Positions 3,624 to 26,131 of a stretch of 56,094 nt of DNA are shown here, piece after piece (positions within the stretch are counted from its first letter, which is position 1; each line of letters opens with the position of its first letter). A model generated the notes under the pieces. That model was given only the letters and a program-made list of their open reading frames with translations. It was not told where the DNA came from and made no database searches. The stretch is from a virus. Where the stretch lies: the IMG/VR virus record IMGVR_UViG_3300027499_000663, positions 1 to 56,094 of that record; one strand, 5' to 3'. The translations under genes and the position numbers were made by a program.

Positions 3624-4406
3624 ATGCGTAATGGTTTATGCGGTTTGTGCGGACAGGCAGGGATCTTAAAGAAAAGTCACCTGCTACCTAAATCAGCGTA
3701 CAAGCAAGTTAGAGATCTGCCCTCAGAAGGTGGAAAATCACCTATGAGGATAGACATGCAGTCGGGAAAATTTGGTAGAACTGATAAGCAGGTGGATGCT
3801 CATCTCCTATGTTCAAAATGCGAGCATCTTTTTTCCAAACATGGAGAAGCGATCGTTGCCAAGCAATGGGGTACCCATCATGAATTTCCTCTGCTTGAAC
3901 GTCTAATGATTATTCGTCCCGCAGAAATTAGCGTTCGCAGACGACTGTTTGTTCCCAACCAGCTTCCCGACGAGTTGAGTTTAGCCCTCTACTACTTCGC
4001 AGTCAGCGTATTCTGGCGCGCCTTAGAATGGCCGGTCCCGGCGCCGGGCTTAAAAAGCTGTAAGGGGGCTTGCACTGGGGCGCAGCTAGAAAAGCTGAGG
4101 AGGTTTCTCTTGAATCCGCAGGGGTACATAGAGGGTTTATTGCTAGTGGCGGACGTTAACACTCAGCCAGAAATGAACGGGATTATGTCGCTACCAGCGC
4201 TAATGAGTCTGCCAAACATTAACAGTATGCAGTTTGACCTTTTGGGTATTAGATTCATGATGTTTGTTGGTGAGAGCCTCCCTGAAGAGCTAGAATTCTT
4301 ACAGGGGAGGCTAAACCGCAACTTCATTATTGTGATGTCTGATCACTCCGGAAGTAATTCGGCGAAGCAAGTCGCTAAATTTTTGCACGACAATGATATT
4401 GATTGA
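3624..4406 (+). CDS. HNH-like zinc-finger protein, accessory (moron) gene
   Basis: A 260-aa protein on the strand opposite to the surrounding operon, more AT-rich than its neighbours. Near the N-terminus it has CGLCGQ...KKSHLLPKSAYK, then about 45 residues later LLCSKCEHLFSKHGE. This is a CxxC / SHxxP / CxxCE treble-clef arrangement as in HNH-type nucleases or HNH-derived zinc domains. The rest has no recognised fold. The ATG at 3624 has AAGGGAAAAG just upstream; the longer frame from 3534 lacks support. The transposed strand and composition suggest a lysogen-expressed gene, possibly defensive. Confidence 0.65.
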   Translation: MRNGLCGLCGQAGILKKSHLLPKSAYKQVRDLPSEGGKSPMRIDMQSGKFGRTDKQVDAHLLCSKCEHLFSKHGEAIVAKQWGTHHEFPLLERLMIIRPAEISVRRRLFVPNQLPDELSLALYYFAVSVFWRALEWPVPAPGLKSCKGACTGAQLEKLRRFLLNPQGYIEGLLLVADVNTQPEMNGIMSLPALMSLPNINSMQFDLLGIRFMMFVGESLPEELEFLQGRLNRNFIIVMSDHSGSNSAKQVAKFLHDNDID

Positions 4407-4457
4407 AGTTCAGTGATTCCGTTGCCGACCAGTCTAGTGTAAACATTGTGGCGGTCC

Positions 4458-6614
4458 TCATGCGGCCACCGCTTCGCGCTGTCTTACCTTCCATGGATCA
4501 TTCGCCCTGGCCAGTGCTGCCATCGGTGGCGGGCTGACGCTGTTGCCGCACATGTGGACCTGCTGGGTCTTGGTGAACGGCTTGCCGTCGGCGCCGTGGC
4601 TGATGATGTAGTCGGTGGGAAAACCCTGGGCTTTGTACAACTCGGCCGGTTGCAGCATCCGCAGGCAGATGTCGACGATAACGTAGGGCGTGCCCTTGAT
4701 GGTGACGGTTACCAGGCCCAAGCGATCCTTGGTGGTGATCGTGGGGGCTGGCTCGTCGGCGCCGCTCACGTTCTCGGTGCCGTAATAGCTGATCAGGAAT
4801 GCCGCGACCCTCAGTGCGCCTTCCTCATGCTCCGGAGAAAGCGTGTACTCAAGCAGCGCGTGGTGCTCGGCACTGGCCGTCAGCGTCGGCACCGTCTCGT
4901 CCATGCCTCGGCCGATGCAGTTCTTCCGGAGCGTGGTCAGGTGCGCCGAGCAAATAGCGTGGTGCTGCCCGGTAGTGACCGTTGGTACCGGGTTTCTGAG
5001 GTCTGTGGCCGCGTGGCCGGTTGTGTTGCTGATCAGCGTCGCCGTCACCAGCTGCTGCTGGCTGCCGGTGTTGGTCACCGTGGTCATCGGGTCTTCGATG
5101 CTCTTCGCGTCGGTAGTGTTGAACCCTCCATTCATCTGGGCCATGAAAACCGTCGAGATACCCATGGCGTGGGCGGCGCCGGCCGGGCGCTGGTAGGTGC
5201 CACCGCTGGTGATGGTCGGCAGCGGCTCGTCGATCGCCTTGCCTTCGTCCGAAAACCGAAACTTGACCAGGTGCGCCGAAGCTATCGCGCGGTGGTTCTG
5301 GGTCATCAGCGTTCCCGCGGGTTGATCCACGGATGCTGGCTTGCCAGAGTACTCGGGCCCACCGGTGCCGACCAAGACAGCACTTGTGAGCGCATGCTTC
5401 ACACCGCCTGCTACCACTGTGCCAAGCGGCTGGTCCAGGCCAGGCACGCGCGGCTCTTGCCCGGCGCGCTCGCCGTATCCGGTTTGAATCAGGGTCGGGC
5501 TGATCAGCGTCAGTTCACCCCGGTTGGCGCACGTAACAGTCGGCAGTGGTTCGTGCGGGTCGTTAATGCGATCGCTGCCCTGGTGCGTGGCTGGCGCGAT
5601 GATCGGGCTGGCCACGGCAAACGAACCACCGCGCGGCCAAGACGTTACGGTGCGCAGTGGTTCCTGCGCAGACTGGACGCTTTCACCGGACCAGTTCGCG
5701 ATCGGCACAATAAACGGATCGGCCGCATCGATGACGAATTTCTTCATGCCCTTGGCAATTCGGCGAAGCGTGGCTGGTGCCAGCGGCTTCGGCCTGTCGA
5801 AAATGCTTTTGCTCGGGATCGTCCAGTCGATGCATTCGGCGGCGGTGCGCCACTTCTTCTGTCCTTTGGCCGGGTGCTTGGCGTGGGTCGGCGCAGGCCA
5901 AACGATAGGCTGGCCGTCGCAGCGGGCGATCATGAACAGTCGCTCACGGCTGGTCGGCGCGCCGAAGTCGCATGCCTTGATGACCCGCCACTCAACGACA
6001 TAGCCCAGGCGCTGCAGCTCGGCGACGAACACGGCCCAGGTCTGCCCACGGCGTTTCGGGTCAGGCACCAGGAACTGCTGGTGAACCGATACCACTTCGC
6101 CAGGTTCAGCAACACCGCCGCCCAGCTTCACAACCCGGCCGGTTGCCTTGTCGCGCTTGGCAATCAGCGGCCCCCATTGGAGGATCTGCTTCACGTTCTC
6201 CAGGCTGATGACACGGGGCTTCTTCTTGCCTGCCCACTTTAGGCCGATCCACGACAGGTTCCGGATCTCCCGCTTGCGCGGTTGGCCCCCGGCGGCCTGG
6301 CTGTGATGCGTGCAGTCCGGCGACATGTGGAACCAACCAACGGCTTTGCCGCCGCACTCGGTATCCGGATCCCCATCGAACACGTCGGTGGTGTAGTGCA
6401 CCGCGCCAGGGTGATTGACGGTGTGCATGCTGATCGCCTGAGGGCTGTGGTTCTTCGCGACATTCACCGCGCGGCCCAGGCCCATCTCAAGCCCGGTACC
6501 GGCGCCACCACCACCGCAGAAGAAGTCGACAACGATTTCATCGTCCTGAGTGCTGAAGCCGAGTCCGTATTGAGTTTTGAAATCGAAGGGGTGTTTCTTC
6601 TGTTGTGCGGACAT
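4458..6614 (-). CDS. DNA (cytosine-5) methyltransferase with repeat-expanded middle
   Basis: A 718-aa C5-cytosine methyltransferase. Motif I is VVDFFCGGGGAGTG (about 28-41); the catalytic loop is SPDCTHHS with Cys101; motif VI is SLENVKQI (about 138-144); motif VIII is SRERLFMIA (about 221-229). Motifs IX-X are AQGFPTDY and CGNSVSPP near the end. It is roughly twice the usual size. Residues about 315-645 hold about nine copies of a motif of type DEPLPTITSG, EPLPTVTC, NPVPTVTTG, occupying the target-recognition position. It likely protects phage DNA from restriction. No partner restriction gene is seen. Monocistronic between two plus-strand genes. Confidence 0.93.
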   Translation of the reverse strand: MSAQQKKHPFDFKTQYGLGFSTQDDEIVVDFFCGGGGAGTGLEMGLGRAVNVAKNHSPQAISMHTVNHPGAVHYTTDVFDGDPDTECGGKAVGWFHMSPDCTHHSQAAGGQPRKREIRNLSWIGLKWAGKKKPRVISLENVKQILQWGPLIAKRDKATGRVVKLGGGVAEPGEVVSVHQQFLVPDPKRRGQTWAVFVAELQRLGYVVEWRVIKACDFGAPTSRERLFMIARCDGQPIVWPAPTHAKHPAKGQKKWRTAAECIDWTIPSKSIFDRPKPLAPATLRRIAKGMKKFVIDAADPFIVPIANWSGESVQSAQEPLRTVTSWPRGGSFAVASPIIAPATHQGSDRINDPHEPLPTVTCANRGELTLISPTLIQTGYGERAGQEPRVPGLDQPLGTVVAGGVKHALTSAVLVGTGGPEYSGKPASVDQPAGTLMTQNHRAIASAHLVKFRFSDEGKAIDEPLPTITSGGTYQRPAGAAHAMGISTVFMAQMNGGFNTTDAKSIEDPMTTVTNTGSQQQLVTATLISNTTGHAATDLRNPVPTVTTGQHHAICSAHLTTLRKNCIGRGMDETVPTLTASAEHHALLEYTLSPEHEEGALRVAAFLISYYGTENVSGADEPAPTITTKDRLGLVTVTIKGTPYVIVDICLRMLQPAELYKAQGFPTDYIISHGADGKPFTKTQQVHMCGNSVSPPPMAALARANDPWKVRQREAVAA

Positions 6615-7290: not shown

Positions 7291-7605
7291 TCAATCATCG
7301 TGACCGATGCGCAGCGACTCGCGGTCAAAGGCAAGCTTCAATTTCCGCGACACGTTTTCTGGTATCACGTATTCGTGTCGCGGTGGCGGTTCGAGCAGGG
7401 GAAGGGCGCCTCCCGGACCAAGACCGTGCAGGTGGTGAATCATCAGCGTAATCGCCTCGCCAGATTCCTCGATGCCACTCCAGGCCATCAGCTCAGCAAG
7501 TGCTTGCCGCGTGCCGGGCAGGCAATGAAACCGAACCTCTACTTCGCCGCGGCTCTTCCTCTTCGCCGCGGCCTTCTCTGACCGTTCCGCATTGCTCTTG
7601 GCCAT
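7291..7605 (-). CDS. Hypothetical early phage protein, 104 aa
   Basis: Protein with a very basic N-terminus (MAKSNAERSEKAAAKRKSR) followed by EVRFHCLPGTRQALAELMAWSGIEESGEAITLMIHHLH. This looks like a ribbon-helix-helix or small DNA-binding domain, followed by a Pro-rich linker. The ATG at 7605 follows GAGGCAGGCC. The 3' part contains one copy of the CGCGACACG inverted repeat (7346-7382), which encodes RHEYVIPENVSR. DNA binding is inferred only. Confidence 0.65.
   Translation of the reverse strand: MAKSNAERSEKAAAKRKSRGEVEVRFHCLPGTRQALAELMAWSGIEESGEAITLMIHHLHGLGPGGALPLLEPPPRHEYVIPENVSRKLKLAFDRESLRIGHDD
7346..7382. repeat. Inverted repeat, copy 1 of 3
   Basis: CGCGACACG at 7346-7354 and its exact complement CGTGTCGCG at 7374-7382, 19 bases apart. 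The flanking base pair also matches, giving 10-bp arms. It lies inside the coding sequence of the 104-aa early protein. The same arms and nearly the same spacing occur at 17098-17133 and 24171-24206. Confidence 0.85.
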
Positions 7606-17029: not shown

Positions 17030-17056
17030 ATTCGATACCACTCAATGAGGCGGATT

Positions 17057-17863
17057 ATGCAGAGCCAACCCAATTCAAGCAATACCCCGATTCATGTCGC
17101 GACACGTTTTACGAATTCTGAAAACGTGTCGCGTACCACGATGTCTTCCCGCGAGATCGCAAACGTAACCGGTAAGCGTCACGACAACGTGAAGCGGGAC
17201 ATCCTCGCAATGCTCAAAGACCTGAAAGTAGATGCACTCAGTTTTGAGGACATCTATCTCGACGGCCGCAATCGCGAACAGGTGCAATACCTGCTTGATC
17301 GTGAACACACCGACTGCCTACTCACTGGCTACAGCGCACCGATGCGCATGAAGGTGATTCGCCGGTGGCGCGAGCTTGAACAGCAGCAGGGTGCCCGCGA
17401 GCAGGTCCTGCTCAATGGCACAAAGGTCGTCGGCGAGATCGCCATCATGGAGTGCTTCACGCGCCTGCTGAAGCCCGCCCCCTCCTGCCAGATGGCAATG
17501 CTGACGAAGATCGCCCAGAACAACGGCCTGGACCCGAAGTTTCTCCCAGGCTACGCCGTCGACGCTGCGCCAGATGCTGCCGGCGGCAGCTCGATGCCCA
17601 CAAAGTCAGCCACGGCCCTCTTGAAAGACCATGGGATTCGCTACGCGCCGGCGGCGTTCAATCGCGCCCTCGCAGCCAAGGGATTTCTCAAGCAACTGCA
17701 GCGCAAAAACTCCAAGCAGGAAACCGTCGACTTCTGGTCCGTGACCGAAAAGGGCATGGCCTTCGGCAAGAACCTCACCAGTCCTCAATCCCCCCGCGAG
17801 ACGCAGCCTCACTGGTACGTCGATCGCTTCCTCGAACTGGCCAAACTGGTCGGGAAGGCCTGA
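17057..17863 (+). CDS. rha: Rha family phage regulatory protein
   Basis: A 268-aa protein with the Rha/pRha domain (about 28-110: MSSREIANVTGKRHDNVKRDILAMLKDL, then YLLDREHTDCLLTGYSAPMRMKVIRRWRELE), then a linker and a C-terminal winged-helix-like region (TALLKDHGIRYAPAAFNRALAAKGFLKQL). Rha proteins are known as phage regulators affecting lytic growth. I use the ATG at 17057, with GAGG before it. The next ATG (17141) begins exactly at the domain but has no ribosome site. The first 26 residues are largely encoded by an inverted repeat (17098-17133). Confidence 0.85.
   Translation: MQSQPNSSNTPIHVATRFTNSENVSRTTMSSREIANVTGKRHDNVKRDILAMLKDLKVDALSFEDIYLDGRNREQVQYLLDREHTDCLLTGYSAPMRMKVIRRWRELEQQQGAREQVLLNGTKVVGEIAIMECFTRLLKPAPSCQMAMLTKIAQNNGLDPKFLPGYAVDAAPDAAGGSSMPTKSATALLKDHGIRYAPAAFNRALAAKGFLKQLQRKNSKQETVDFWSVTEKGMAFGKNLTSPQSPRETQPHWYVDRFLELAKLVGKA
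17098..17133. repeat. Inverted repeat, copy 2 of 3
   Basis: Perfect 13-bp arms CGCGACACGTTTT (17098-17110) and AAAACGTGTCGCG (17121-17133) with a 10-base loop. It is the most symmetrical of three related copies. It lies within the first codons of the Rha gene, encoding ATRFTNSENVSR, upstream of the Rha domain proper. Confidence 0.9.
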
Positions 17864-23156: not shown

Positions 23157-23488
23157 TGCCTGAAATTTATCTGTAGCCAGGACAGCCCTCGGGACGGCCT
23201 GGACGTCGATAGCCGGATAGTGCGACGTACGGAATCAACACCGGCAGCCCGCGCACCCTGTACACCAATGCTTCCAGGGTGGCGCGAGACTGGGCCAGCG
23301 AGATCGATGCAATGGGGCGTCGACGCTGCGAAGGTCTTTGGCGGACAGCGCGGAAAGACGCGCGCACCTATTTCAAGGCCTCGCATGAGCGGGGCTTTTT
23401 CGTTTTCGGCTCCACCACACCCATCGCGCTGAGCTGGGAGTGCTGCTGGGGCTGATTAAAATCAAGTCATGCCAACGGAGTCGAGCGC
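23157..23488. other. Gene-poor stretch ending in a terminator
   Basis: No frame has a convincing start and ribosome site. One plus-strand frame without a start reads YGINTGSPRTLYTNASRVARDW and onward for about 55 residues, so a decayed gene is possible. A terminator, GCCTCGC (23378-23384) / GCGGGGC (23389-23395) plus T5, closes it. The remaining 90 bp precede the holin-like gene and may hold its promoter. Confidence 0.5.
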
Positions 23489-23827
23489 ATGGAGTACTTG
23501 CAGCGCCTGCTCGACAATCTCGACAGGTTTGGATTGCTGATTGCTGGCTTCACTGGCGCCGTCATTGCCAGCTGGTGGCACAAGGACGACCTCACGGACT
23601 GGCGCGCCTGGGCGATCTTTCTGATTACCGGTGTCGCCTGCTCCTGGTACCTGACGAGCATGGTCAGCACCTACCTGGGTGTGACCGAGCCGAGAATTGT
23701 CGCGGGCATAGGCTTTCTACTGGGCACCTTCGGTGGTTCGCTCCTGGCAGCCATCAACCGCGCCATCAAAGCCGCTGACCTCTGGGCGCTCATCCGCCAG
23801 CGGTTCGGGGGAGGCAACCCACCATGA
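23489..23827 (+). CDS. Putative holin
   Basis: A 112-aa protein with three hydrophobic helices (LLIAGFTGAVIASWWH; AWAIFLITGVACSWYLTSM; IVAGIGFLLGTFGGSLLAAI) and short charged ends, the layout of class I phage holins of Pseudomonas phages. It would permeabilise the inner membrane for endolysin release. Overlaps the next membrane-protein gene by ATGA. It stands about 26 kb from the endolysin gene, which is unusual but seen in related phages. Confidence 0.7.
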   Translation: MEYLQRLLDNLDRFGLLIAGFTGAVIASWWHKDDLTDWRAWAIFLITGVACSWYLTSMVSTYLGVTEPRIVAGIGFLLGTFGGSLLAAINRAIKAADLWALIRQRFGGGNPP

Positions 23828-24168
23828 ATCTTGAACTGATCAACTCCATCGCCTGCGGCTTGATTGCCTTGTGGGCGACCTGGTGTGTCCTGAGCTGCCG
23901 GGTGCGAGACGGCATCCTCGGCAAGCTGATCTATTCGGCGATCGCCATCAGTGGTTTCGTTGTGATGACCCGCAGCCAGAACATTTTCTTCGGGCCAACG
24001 ACTGCGGGTCTGACTTTGCATGTGTCCCTGGCCCTTGCCGGCCTGCGCCACATCTTCATGGTCATCTGGTGGCAGCGGGTGAAAGCCTGGCTATGCCGCA
24101 CGCTGAACTGCCAACACTGCATGCGCTGCGACAAGGCGCCCGGTGGCATAGAGCGCCGGAGCAAATAA
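23824..24168 (+). CDS. Second small membrane protein, antiholin-like
   Basis: A 114-aa protein with three helices (LINSIACGLIALWATWCVLSC; LIYSAIAISGFVVMTR; LALAGLRHIFMVIWWQ) and a cysteine-rich basic tail (LCRTLNCQHCMRCDKAPGG). Translation is coupled to the holin-like gene. Paired membrane proteins here are usually holin and regulator; which is which cannot be told from sequence. Confidence 0.65.
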   Translation: MNLELINSIACGLIALWATWCVLSCRVRDGILGKLIYSAIAISGFVVMTRSQNIFFGPTTAGLTLHVSLALAGLRHIFMVIWWQRVKAWLCRTLNCQHCMRCDKAPGGIERRSK

Positions 24169-24170
24169 TC

Positions 24171-24206
24171 CGCGACACGTTTCGTGAATCAGCAAATCGT
24201 GTCGCG
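24171..24206. repeat. Inverted repeat, copy 3 of 3
   Basis: CGCGACACG (24171-24179) and CGTGTCGCG (24198-24206) with 18 bases between, immediately before the acb2 ribosome site and after the second membrane-protein stop. The right part continues as CGTGTCGCGACACG (24198-24211), itself a 14-bp palindrome. This is the only one of the three copies located in a leader rather than a gene. Confidence 0.88.
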
Positions 24207-24227
24207 ACACGCGACGAGGAGAACACC

Positions 24228-24458
24228 ATGGATAACCAGCACAAGAAGATCACCGGTTACCGCGACCTGACCCAGTCTGAAATCGACGGTATGAACTCCA
24301 TCAAGGCGCTGGAGGCTGACGCCGGCGAACTATTTAAGCAGATCGGCCAGATCGAGGGCGTTGATCCGCGACTGCTGGCCCTGGCCAAAACGAATCTGCA
24401 GCAGGGTTTCATGTGGTTTGTGCGCTCAATCGCTAAACCCGCTGATCCATTCAGCTGA
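24228..24458 (+). CDS. acb2: Acb2/Tad1-domain anti-CBASS protein
   Basis: A 76-aa protein. DNQHKKITGYRDLTQSEIDGMNSIK at the start and TNLQQGFMWFVRSIAKP at the end are the conserved ends of Acb2/Tad1-domain proteins. Acb2 forms oligomers that sequester cyclic di- and trinucleotides and so block CBASS abortive infection; the family is also linked to Thoeris inhibition. The ribosome site is ideal (GAGGAG). The leader carries an inverted repeat (24171-24206). Two small genes follow in overlap. Sequestration is known for relatives, not shown for this copy. Confidence 0.88.
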   Translation: MDNQHKKITGYRDLTQSEIDGMNSIKALEADAGELFKQIGQIEGVDPRLLALAKTNLQQGFMWFVRSIAKPADPFS

Positions 24459-24649
24459 TGAGTACCGTGACCCGTCTGCATCACGCGCTACCGCTGAGCC
24501 CTGCCATCAACAACGCGGTCAAGGACCTGGACGGCGCTATTTCCAAGGCAATTGACGCTGCTAAGGCCGCCGGCCTGCCTCAAGGCCTGGTCGTGTCCGT
24601 CTTGCACGGGCACGCTCACGCACAAACCCACAACATGGTGAAGGCATGA
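24458..24649 (+). CDS. Small protein coupled to acb2, 63 aa
   Basis: Starts by TGATG overlap with acb2. The helical sequence is PLSPAINNAVKDLDGAISKAIDAAKAAGLPQGLVVSVLHGHAHAQTHNMVKA, with a His-rich end (HGHAHAQTH). No family recognised. Strict coupling with the anti-CBASS gene suggests shared timing and perhaps an accessory anti-defence role. Confidence 0.6.
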   Translation: MSTVTRLHHALPLSPAINNAVKDLDGAISKAIDAAKAAGLPQGLVVSVLHGHAHAQTHNMVKA

Positions 24650-24900
24650 CCGCAAAGCTCGTTGAGCTCAAACGTGAGGGCTGGCGCGATGCCGCCAAGA
24701 CGCTGCGAAAGATTGCAGATGACCTCGATGCCGGTGTGCACCCCGAATGCACTGTAGGCGCGTTGACCCTCATGGGATCGAAAGGTGAAGTGACGGTGTT
24801 CGGGCTGGGTCCAAAGTGCGACGACCTGCAGTGCCTGGGCGCAATGCGCCTTGGTGAGCAGAAGTTGATTGATGTGCTGCTCGATGGAGGGGAGGGGTAG
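24646..24900 (+). CDS. Small protein of the acb2 operon, 84 aa
   Basis: ATGA-coupled to the gene before. It begins MTAKLVELKREGWRDAAKTLRKIADDLDAGVHPECTVGALTLMGSKGEVTVFGLG, a helix followed by a beta section with the phrase VTVFGLG. I recognise this as a recurring phage protein type of unknown function that tends to sit near small anti-defence genes. Anti-defence is a guess from context. Confidence 0.6.
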   Translation: MTAKLVELKREGWRDAAKTLRKIADDLDAGVHPECTVGALTLMGSKGEVTVFGLGPKCDDLQCLGAMRLGEQKLIDVLLDGGEG

Positions 24901-25006
24901 ATGTGCCGCAGGTGGGTGCACGTTGACGTCCTAGCAGCTCGCGCATTGGTGGCTCCGTGATTGTCCGTACTGGCATACTGCTTATCCAATCTGGATGGGG
25001 TATGTC

Positions 25007-25474
25007 ATGAAATTCGAACCTGTAGCATTGAATGACCAGCACGTGGTTGAGAACACTGCCGAGATCGAACCTGCCGTAAAACATTATTGCGCTCGGCTTC
25101 TTGAGAGCCTGAAGAAAGCATTCGACTCAAAGCCGAATCAATTGAAATACGGTGTTGAGTTTTTTTCCAACGAGCGGCTCGAAGCAGAAATCAGTACGCC
25201 GTTTGGCAAGGCGCGAGGCCGCTTGGTGCTGCAGATTTCGGGCTCAGAAATAAATGGGCGGTACGTCTTCGAAAAAGGCGTGGTGTCAGAGCACGGGCTT
25301 GATTCATGGCGTCCTGTTTGGGCTCTTGTGATAACGAAAGATGGGATGGTGCGCCTAGGAGACGAAGGGTCTATGGAGATCAATGCGGCGGGCAACGATA
25401 CGCACGGTCAGGCTATCACTGCTGTTGCAAGGTCTTTGCTTTATGCAATCGGGGTGTCGCCCACATTCCTGTAA
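25007..25474 (+). CDS. Accessory hypothetical protein, 155 aa
   Basis: Alpha/beta protein (MKFEPVALNDQHVVENTAEIEPAVKHYCARLLESLKKAFDSKP..., GKARGRLVLQISGSEINGRYVFEKGVV). Separated from the acb2 operon by 106 bp, with its own terminator after it, so it is a free-standing unit between lysis-type and packaging genes, the usual place for a moron. Not recognised. Confidence 0.6.
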   Translation: MKFEPVALNDQHVVENTAEIEPAVKHYCARLLESLKKAFDSKPNQLKYGVEFFSNERLEAEISTPFGKARGRLVLQISGSEINGRYVFEKGVVSEHGLDSWRPVWALVITKDGMVRLGDEGSMEINAAGNDTHGQAITAVARSLLYAIGVSPTFL

Positions 25475-25491
25475 TGGCCAACGAGTTGTCC

Positions 25492-25517
25492 TGCCCCGCC
25501 AAGTGCGGGGTTTTTTG
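25492..25517 (+). terminator. Terminator before the packaging genes
   Basis: CCCCGC (25494-25499) / GCGGGG (25505-25510) followed by six T. Ends the accessory gene at 25007-25474; the terminase genes begin 15 bp later. Confidence 0.85.
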
Positions 25518-25531
25518 TAACTGGAGTTCCC

Positions 25532-26131
25532 ATGACAACCAAGCAACCCGACTGGGAGGCAATCGAGCGAGCCTACCGGGCTGGTGCGCTTTCCATCCGA
25601 ACCATCGCTGAGCGTAACGGCGTCAGTGACACCGCGATTCGTAAGAAGGCTAAGGCCTTAGGATGGGCGAGAGATCTTTCCGAGCAGGTGCGCAAAGAGG
25701 TTCGCAACAAGCTGGTTCGCGGTGAGGTTCGCGATGATCAATGTGCGAACCCTGAGCGGGACGCCGAGATCATCGAAGAGGCAGCGGAAGAGGGCGCGAC
25801 GGTTGTTCGCAGCCATCGCCGAGACATTCGCAAAGCCACGAACCTTGCGAACCTGCTGATGGATGATCTGCTCACTACGATCAAGCGGCGTGAGGAAATC
25901 GAAGACGCCATTGCTGACGAAACTGCCGACGATGAGGGCGGTTTCCGTCGAGGCTCGATGCTCGCGGCGGTTGCTCTGCCCAGCAACGCCAAAACCCTTT
26001 TCCAATTGTCCTCGGCCATGAAGAACCTGCAGGTGCTCGAACGCACCGCATTTGGCCTTGATGACAAGGAGCAGTCGAAAGACTCCGACGAACTTTCGCA
26101 ACTGATGGACGAACTATCGAAGGACGCCTGA
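25532..26131 (+). CDS. Terminase small subunit
   Basis: A 199-aa DNA-recognition subunit of the packaging motor. The N-terminal helix-turn-helix (about 8-45: WEAIERAYRAGALSIRTIAERNGVSDTAIRKKAKALGW) should bind the pac or cos site. A helical middle and acidic end (SDELSQLMDELSKDA) probably contact the large subunit. Immediately upstream of the large subunit gene. Confidence 0.9.
   Translation: MTTKQPDWEAIERAYRAGALSIRTIAERNGVSDTAIRKKAKALGWARDLSEQVRKEVRNKLVRGEVRDDQCANPERDAEIIEEAAEEGATVVRSHRRDIRKATNLANLLMDDLLTTIKRREEIEDAIADETADDEGGFRRGSMLAAVALPSNAKTLFQLSSAMKNLQVLERTAFGLDDKEQSKDSDELSQLMDELSKDA

Follow-up and report, generated by a model that had tools for sequence, protein, structure and literature searches.

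The locus examined here raises the question of whether acb2, a small phage gene that overlaps the gene behind it, heads a dedicated anti-defense operon, or whether the more informative feature is the inverted repeat in its leader. The window, meaning the whole 56,094-nucleotide stretch of viral DNA that was analyzed (IMG/VR record IMGVR_UViG_3300027499_000663), places the gene between lysis and packaging functions. From 23489 to 26131, two holin-family genes are followed by the inverted repeat (the R dyad), acb2, two small genes (p63 and p84), a 159-aa open reading frame, a hairpin, and the gene for the small terminase subunit:

23489 to 23827, plus strand: holin-family gene, 112 aa (phrog_2359)
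23824 to 24168, plus strand: holin-family gene, 114 aa (phrog_2508), left border of the cargo slot
24171 to 24206: R dyad, CGCGACACG-N18-CGTGTCGCG, between the holin stop codon and the acb2 ribosome-binding site
24228 to 24458, plus strand: acb2, 76 aa, a short-hairpin Acb2 with matches to PF24729, 8h2j and 8ixz
24458 to 24649, plus strand: p63, 63-aa gene (phrog_15190, function unassigned)
24646 to 24900, plus strand: p84, 84-aa gene (phrog_30428, function unassigned)
24995 to 25474, plus strand: 159-aa open reading frame, additional cargo, without a confident Pfam or PHROG family
25493 to 25511, plus strand: weak terminator-like hairpin followed by a T run, between the cargo and the small terminase gene
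25532 to 26131, plus strand: small terminase subunit (phrog_1206, E 1.8e-66), right border of the slot

Two terminator-like hairpins were found in the cassette region, against 1.5 expected in shuffled sequence. A Proteo-phage-1 RNA (RF03044, 77.7 bits, gathering threshold 42) lies at 23171-23249, just upstream of the holin genes.

An earlier sequence-only reading had assigned the 76-aa protein to Acb2 and placed its gene beside lysis-type genes. The two holin-family genes account for the latter, and profile searches bear out the former: the protein matches PF24729 (Acb2_Tad1_hairpin) at E 5.8e-19, scoring 68.5 bits where the cut-off is 27, over profile positions 1-58 of 58. Solved Acb2 chains were matched as well (p26 8h2j, E 1.4e-13; 8ixz, E 7.4e-13), as was the T4 Vs.4 chain 7uq2 at E 0.0025. 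Loss of the pocket residues would have spoken against the assignment; both Y11 and K26 are kept, and Y11 aligns with Y8 of T4 Acb2 once a chain numbering offset of one is allowed for. Changing Y8 abolishes cyclic-dinucleotide binding, as described in the T4 Acb2 passages of PMC12657218. Homology thus establishes membership of the Acb2 family, and the protein probably acts as a cyclic-oligonucleotide sponge. Like the Acb2 (anti-CBASS 2) proteins of PaMx33/PaP2 and T4 (Vs.4), it matches PF24729 over its full length and keeps the N-terminal MDNQHKKI.GYRDL and C-terminal KT..Q..M...R.IA.P motifs; unlike the Acb2 reference, it has 76 rather than about 94 residues, with a helical-hairpin middle some 18 residues shorter than that of the Pseudomonas reference, whose middle is itself approximate. 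Characterized Acb2 blocks CBASS and assembles as a hexamer, which has three sites for cyclic dinucleotides and two for cyclic trinucleotides; a hairpin as short as the one here could change the trimer interface. A tblastn search placed relatives in 239 phage records, of which 119 bear a Vibrio name. The Acb2 of P. aeruginosa phage 5400 is 93% identical to the window's Acb2 and is flanked by different genes, with no match for p63 or p84 in that record. The gene is one more member of a known family and nothing new in kind.

The overlaps that suggested a single unit are real, with TGATG joining the acb2 stop to the p63 ATG and ATGA joining the p63 stop to the p84 ATG. From them the sequence-only reading had argued for strict coupling, and hence for p63 and p84 as further anti-defense candidates. 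Neighbors within 1.5 kb were tallied in the 80 best-matching IMG/VR loci per protein, keeping those with 1.5 kb on both sides (61 for p63, 68 for p84 and 70 for acb2; several contigs are shared among the three sets). In these best-match sets, p63 stood alone in 23 loci, with p84 only in 19 and with acb2 in 19, so that acb2 was missing from 42 of 61; p84 was without acb2 in 48 of 68. The gene acb2 itself had neither partner in 26 of its 70 loci, p63 in 21, p63 then p84 in 20, p84 then p63 in two, and another order in one. The earlier reading had named as contrary evidence the occurrence of the small genes without acb2 just as often as with it, and they turn out to be commoner without it. Coupling in these phages is therefore not strict and cannot argue for an anti-defense role of p63 or p84, whose candidacy loses its support. 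A dedicated anti-defense operon, whose three genes would all act against bacterial immunity and be inherited as a set, can be given very little credence: the overlapping starts and stops and the acb2-p63-p84 order in 20 of the 70 best-match acb2 loci speak for it, but so many p63 and p84 loci lack acb2, and neither small protein matches a defense or counter-defense family. The family libraries searched gave no function for either protein, solved-structure sequence searches returned nothing below E 0.4, and the predicted structure of p84 (pLDDT 56.4) was too poor for a structure search.

Two observations on these small genes stand apart. The p84 family has a second subfamily (L034, L051 and L049), 52-56% identical, whose differing middle may point to an altered specificity. 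In two P. syringae phages, p63 is followed by a gene annotated as proteasome subunit beta:

Aurca01 (L245), 4207-4686: gene annotated proteasome subunit beta
Medea1 (L242), 5207-5686: gene annotated proteasome subunit beta

The palindromic element that the sequence-only reading had pointed out in the acb2 leader proved more informative than the gene coupling. A scan of 242 related loci, which tolerated up to three mismatches and did not require pairing, found the dyad upstream of the cargo genes in 230, with two or fewer mismatches in 225; conservation on this scale means that the R dyad is not a chance repeat. A by-eye alignment gave the consensus CGCGMCACG, 18 to 19 bases, CGTGKCGCG. The element lies directly 3' of the preceding stop codon and directly 5' of the ribosome-binding site of the first gene, whichever gene that is. 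The 12-mer GTGTCGCGACAC, found in 94 of 245 loci, is nearly always next to the acb2/p63/p84 cassette. When R sites were located by DNA pattern alone and a first gene was sought within 48 bases, 53 of 64 distinct sites had an open reading frame close behind, falling into 18 first-gene clusters, and 11 had none. The p63 type was the first gene at 18 sites and acb2 at 10, with small terminase, p84 and many unrelated genes at others. Since varied first genes follow a constant dyad, the slot accepts different cargo, and acb2 is one of its commoner tenants. The acb2 slot is thus a variable cargo site in temperate phages of Pseudomonas, flanked by lysis and terminase genes, and scanning behind R sites would list candidate accessory genes.

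The R dyad is one of three of the same kind in the window. The other two, M and L, lie to its left, each at or within a gene:

7291 to 7605, minus strand: phrog_5439 gene, 104 aa, ribbon-helix-helix-like, candidate dyad binder (by arm-type association and predicted fold)
7346 to 7382: L dyad, with one extra spacer base, located within the 3' coding end of the phrog_5439 gene
17054 to 17863, plus strand: rha-like gene (PF09669, E 3.5e-14), start codon uncertain
17098 to 17133: M dyad, at the 5' end of the rha-like gene, after a CII-type gene

Such dispersed sites recur widely. Among the phage records behind the loci, 47 of 49 carry one to four exact dyads and none carries the control pattern; all 50 of the genome-contig stretches are titled Pseudomonas. 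Fifteen whole Pseudomonas genomes hold 39 dyads (control, 0), many of them in trios spaced about 10 and 7 kb apart, and dyads occur in 61 of 194 relatives of one whole Pseudomonas genome, a count that includes a few loop-poor, chance-looking matches (e.g., G088, G090, G115, G162 and G178). Named phages carry three (Medea1), two (Aurca01 and PseuP_222) or one (phiPSA1 and UFJF_PfDIW6); phages 5400 and MiCath have none. The positions recur too. Of 26 phages where the small minus-strand gene was found, 23 have L within its 3' coding end; M lies between a CII-type gene and an rha or O-like gene, and R behind the holin. A consensus scan found no promoter-like match at L, M or R. A conserved TTGCTTGAATTGGGTTGGCTCTGCATAAT-like stretch at 17050-17095 adjoins the M dyad and, read leftward, resembles an establishment promoter; the same scan did not call it as a promoter. 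Extra dyads occur in the tail gene region, next to small genes that vary (L382, L386, L390 and L303), where there may be a fourth docking place.

The arms of the dyads come in two matched types. Of 140 distinct sites, 96 have A-T at the fifth arm base and its partner, 43 have C-G and one has A-C. An RNA hairpin between genes that acts in processing, stability or translation control has to be weighed against a DNA site. The dyad can fold as RNA, and at R it has a stop codon on one side and a ribosome-binding site on the other. The ninth pair (G-T 88, G-C 38 and A-C 11 of 140) would suit G-U pairing and is mixed evidence for a stem. However, within the eight arm pairs, where a stem should favor G-U, there are as many A-C as G-U mismatches (six of each), so these pairs give no pointer to an RNA stem. 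The energy of the R fold is ordinary (z -1.27), the L dyad lies inside coding sequence, and Rfam gave no above-threshold match at the R dyad or leader; its best hit, Streptomyces-metK at 15.1 bits against 44.2, was rejected as an identity for the acb2 leader. An RNA hairpin is on this evidence distinctly improbable.

Arm type tends to be a property of the phage. Dyads within one phage have arms in common and different spacers, and the M and R types agree in 28 of 29 phages with both labels, the exception being G008. Among whole genomes, M and R differ in G057 and G058:C203. The L type departs from M and R in G009, G011, G012, G028 and G034, and from R in G032. If a protein reads the arms, its gene might be expected to vary with them, and this expectation was put to 20 gene families, each with at least 10 labelled members, in the window and the left-hand portions of 29 additional phages. 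Because these phages were drawn from loci carrying p63, p84 or acb2, the sample is not random. For each protein, the nearest neighbor by identity was scored for sharing its M/R arm type. G008 was excluded as discordant, G046 was labelled by M only, and the M/R pair of G006 was taken as 23578/29539 rather than 17029/23578, a mis-pairing that leaves its label unaffected since all three sites are A-type. The phrog_5439 protein was scored with its dyad-encoded C-terminus removed.

Its nearest neighbor predicted the arm type with an accuracy of 0.96 in 25 phages, a value that none of 2000 permutations equalled, and the accuracy was unchanged when neighbors above 85% identity were ignored. NinG, which is encoded between M and R and is present in 29 of the 30 phages, reached 0.61 (p 0.22). 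CI (0.39), integrase (0.69), rha (0.70), terL (0.70) and the holins (0.50 and 0.73) were not significant either. Some linkage signal is nonetheless present, since p63 and g265 also track arm type, at 0.95 and 0.82 (both 0.82 with near-identical neighbors excluded). With the same exclusion in brackets, the values were 0.83 (0.50) for NinB, 0.93 (0.64) for g154 and 0.83 (0.33) for acb2. The signals of all five are weaker than that of phrog_5439 or linkage-like. Rha, a candidate because M lies at the 5' end of its gene, was rejected as the leading one: it occurs in 20 of 30 phages and scored 0.70 (p 0.28), and M can precede an O-like gene instead. A profile scan seemed to put Rha beside most dyads, an artefact that arose because the profile contained peptide encoded by the dyad.

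The association held in prophages fetched later. Of 18 phrog_5439 proteins from whole genomes not used before, 16 were scored, leaving out G057 (discordant) and G109 (sites on separate contigs), with labels from R for G167, whose M arm is mixed, from M alone for G152 and G112, and from R alone for G163 and G097. The arm was predicted correctly in 15 of the 16. G095 was the single miss: its protein shares 81% identity with one of A type but differs in the ribbon, ELRLHT versus EIRLHC. At ribbon position 28 (counted from MAKSN), 11 of the 12 A-type proteins in the main subfamily have C or L, and all 20 C-type proteins have V or T; having been spotted after the fact and having one exception (G028), this position is a lead only. 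Co-occurrence carries little weight, since the L dyad sits inside the phrog_5439 gene and the counts are thus partly trivial (among the 194 genomes, 43 with both, 18 with the site only, 11 with the gene only and 122 with neither). The gene was not found in six of the 30 records, some of them fragments (G015, G018, G020, G039, G045 and G047). It is present without an exact dyad in G036 and G042.

The same data bear on a reading that requires no bound protein, in which the dyads are recombination linkers, module-border sequences kept for homologous swapping of modules. Sequence does diverge right at both dyad ends, the sites do lie where modules meet (at lysis/cargo and at CII/rha or O-like, close to tail genes and close to the integrase), and the first cargo gene is freely swapped. 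Yet simple linkers need no matched arms, and mixed arms occur once in 140 sites; nor do they explain why dyads within a phage agree in their arms and differ in their spacers, why L is inside coding sequence, or why arm type follows one protein family and not NinG, which lies between the sites. We consider linkers unlikely, though deserving of more weight than an RNA hairpin.

What kind of protein phrog_5439 encodes is suggested by structure prediction. The window's protein matched no Pfam family at E up to 0.1, five relatives gave unrelated sub-cut-off Pfam matches and no ribbon-helix-helix (RHH) model, and the family profile found no sensible match among solved-structure sequences (best E 0.04, unrelated). 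Divergent RHH proteins are often missed by curated sequence models. An AF2 model (pLDDT 81.7) has helices at 32-43 and 48-61, corresponding to the helix pair of an RHH domain, and no strand assigned in the monomer. All 16 Foldseek matches, weak at E 3.9 to 9.9, were to RHH-type DNA binders (chains of NikR, of VapBC11 or of plant transcription factors of the TCP type); NikR ranked top by Z (4.1, rmsd 1.3 over 42 residues). The protein is thus predicted to be RHH-like. Proteins of about 160 aa that match the family twice (L519, L520, G017, G019 and G041), all in C-type phages, are apparently tandem RHH duplications.

The reading we favor, with a somewhat better than even chance of being right, is that the slot carries an Acb2 sponge and that the three operator-like dyads are bound by the phrog_5439 RHH protein with a silencing effect. 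The protein probably contacts the dyads physically, and it would occupy L, M and R as a dimer of dimers, each arm held by one RHH dimer, in a geometry like that of NikR on its long-spacer operator, an analogy that makes no claim of NikR membership. Its effect on transcription, whether roadblock or repression, is our guess. In the lysogen, the bound dyads would quieten the early operon on the M side and the cargo on the R side, including acb2; after induction, the late transcript would read the R-side cargo. Silencing or a roadblock is favored because R has no promoter-like match and lies, to judge by gene order, inside the late transcript, because M heads the replication operon, and because Acb2 acts upon induction and not in maintained lysogeny, as stated in part of a review (PMC12043709). 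Sponge expression can also trigger Panoptes, according to the relevant passages of PMC12657218, so that silence in the lysogen would pay.

A wider proposal, to which we give a little less than an even chance, is that these elements form an undescribed phage-wide regulon of Pseudomonas temperate phages. A small RHH protein and three dyads, whose protein and DNA specificities switch together (from A-T to C-G arms), would act on the bordered modules by silencing, looping or timing, with R as a regulated dock for swappable cargo. No description of the dyads or of the phrog_5439 family turned up in searches of the open-access literature, and within that scope the dispersed-operator circuit appears to be undescribed. 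If the proposal is right, a silent sponge would also spare lysogens the attention of guard systems such as Panoptes, which Acb2 sets off. The phrog_5439 gene, so far without any function, becomes a candidate regulator, and the way protein and site change together in many natural phages offers a useful natural experiment on change in DNA-binding specificity. The proposal also bears on when phages express sponges, a matter of cost where Panoptes is present, as parts of PMC12657218 indicate.

Several known systems invite comparison. The arrangement is reminiscent of start-associated sequences, short conserved elements before start codons whose extended forms have inverted repeats. To our knowledge these have no matched-arm types, and they belong to mycobacterial phages, whose host differs from that of the phages considered here. 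They are named for cluster K mycobacteriophages in PMC3203893. Mycobacteriophage stoperators are likewise repressor sites spread over a phage genome; they are described in part of PMC9283540 as asymmetric, numerous and bound by the immunity repressor, whereas the present sites are dyads, number two to five per phage, and show association with a small gene that lies well away from CI. The stoperator class was rejected on these grounds, the sites being dyads and not asymmetric, and the CI allele not following arm type (0.39). NikR, a tetramer with two RHH domains, recognizes the operator GTATGA-N16-TCATAC, as given in the sections of PMC7055735 that describe it. The phrog_5439 protein, with no Pfam match of any kind, gives no sign of the nickel-binding C-terminal domain of NikR, and it differs further in being phage-encoded and in having three sites per phage; it resembles NikR in its predicted RHH fold and in the short arms and long spacer of its putative operator, here 9-N18/19-9.
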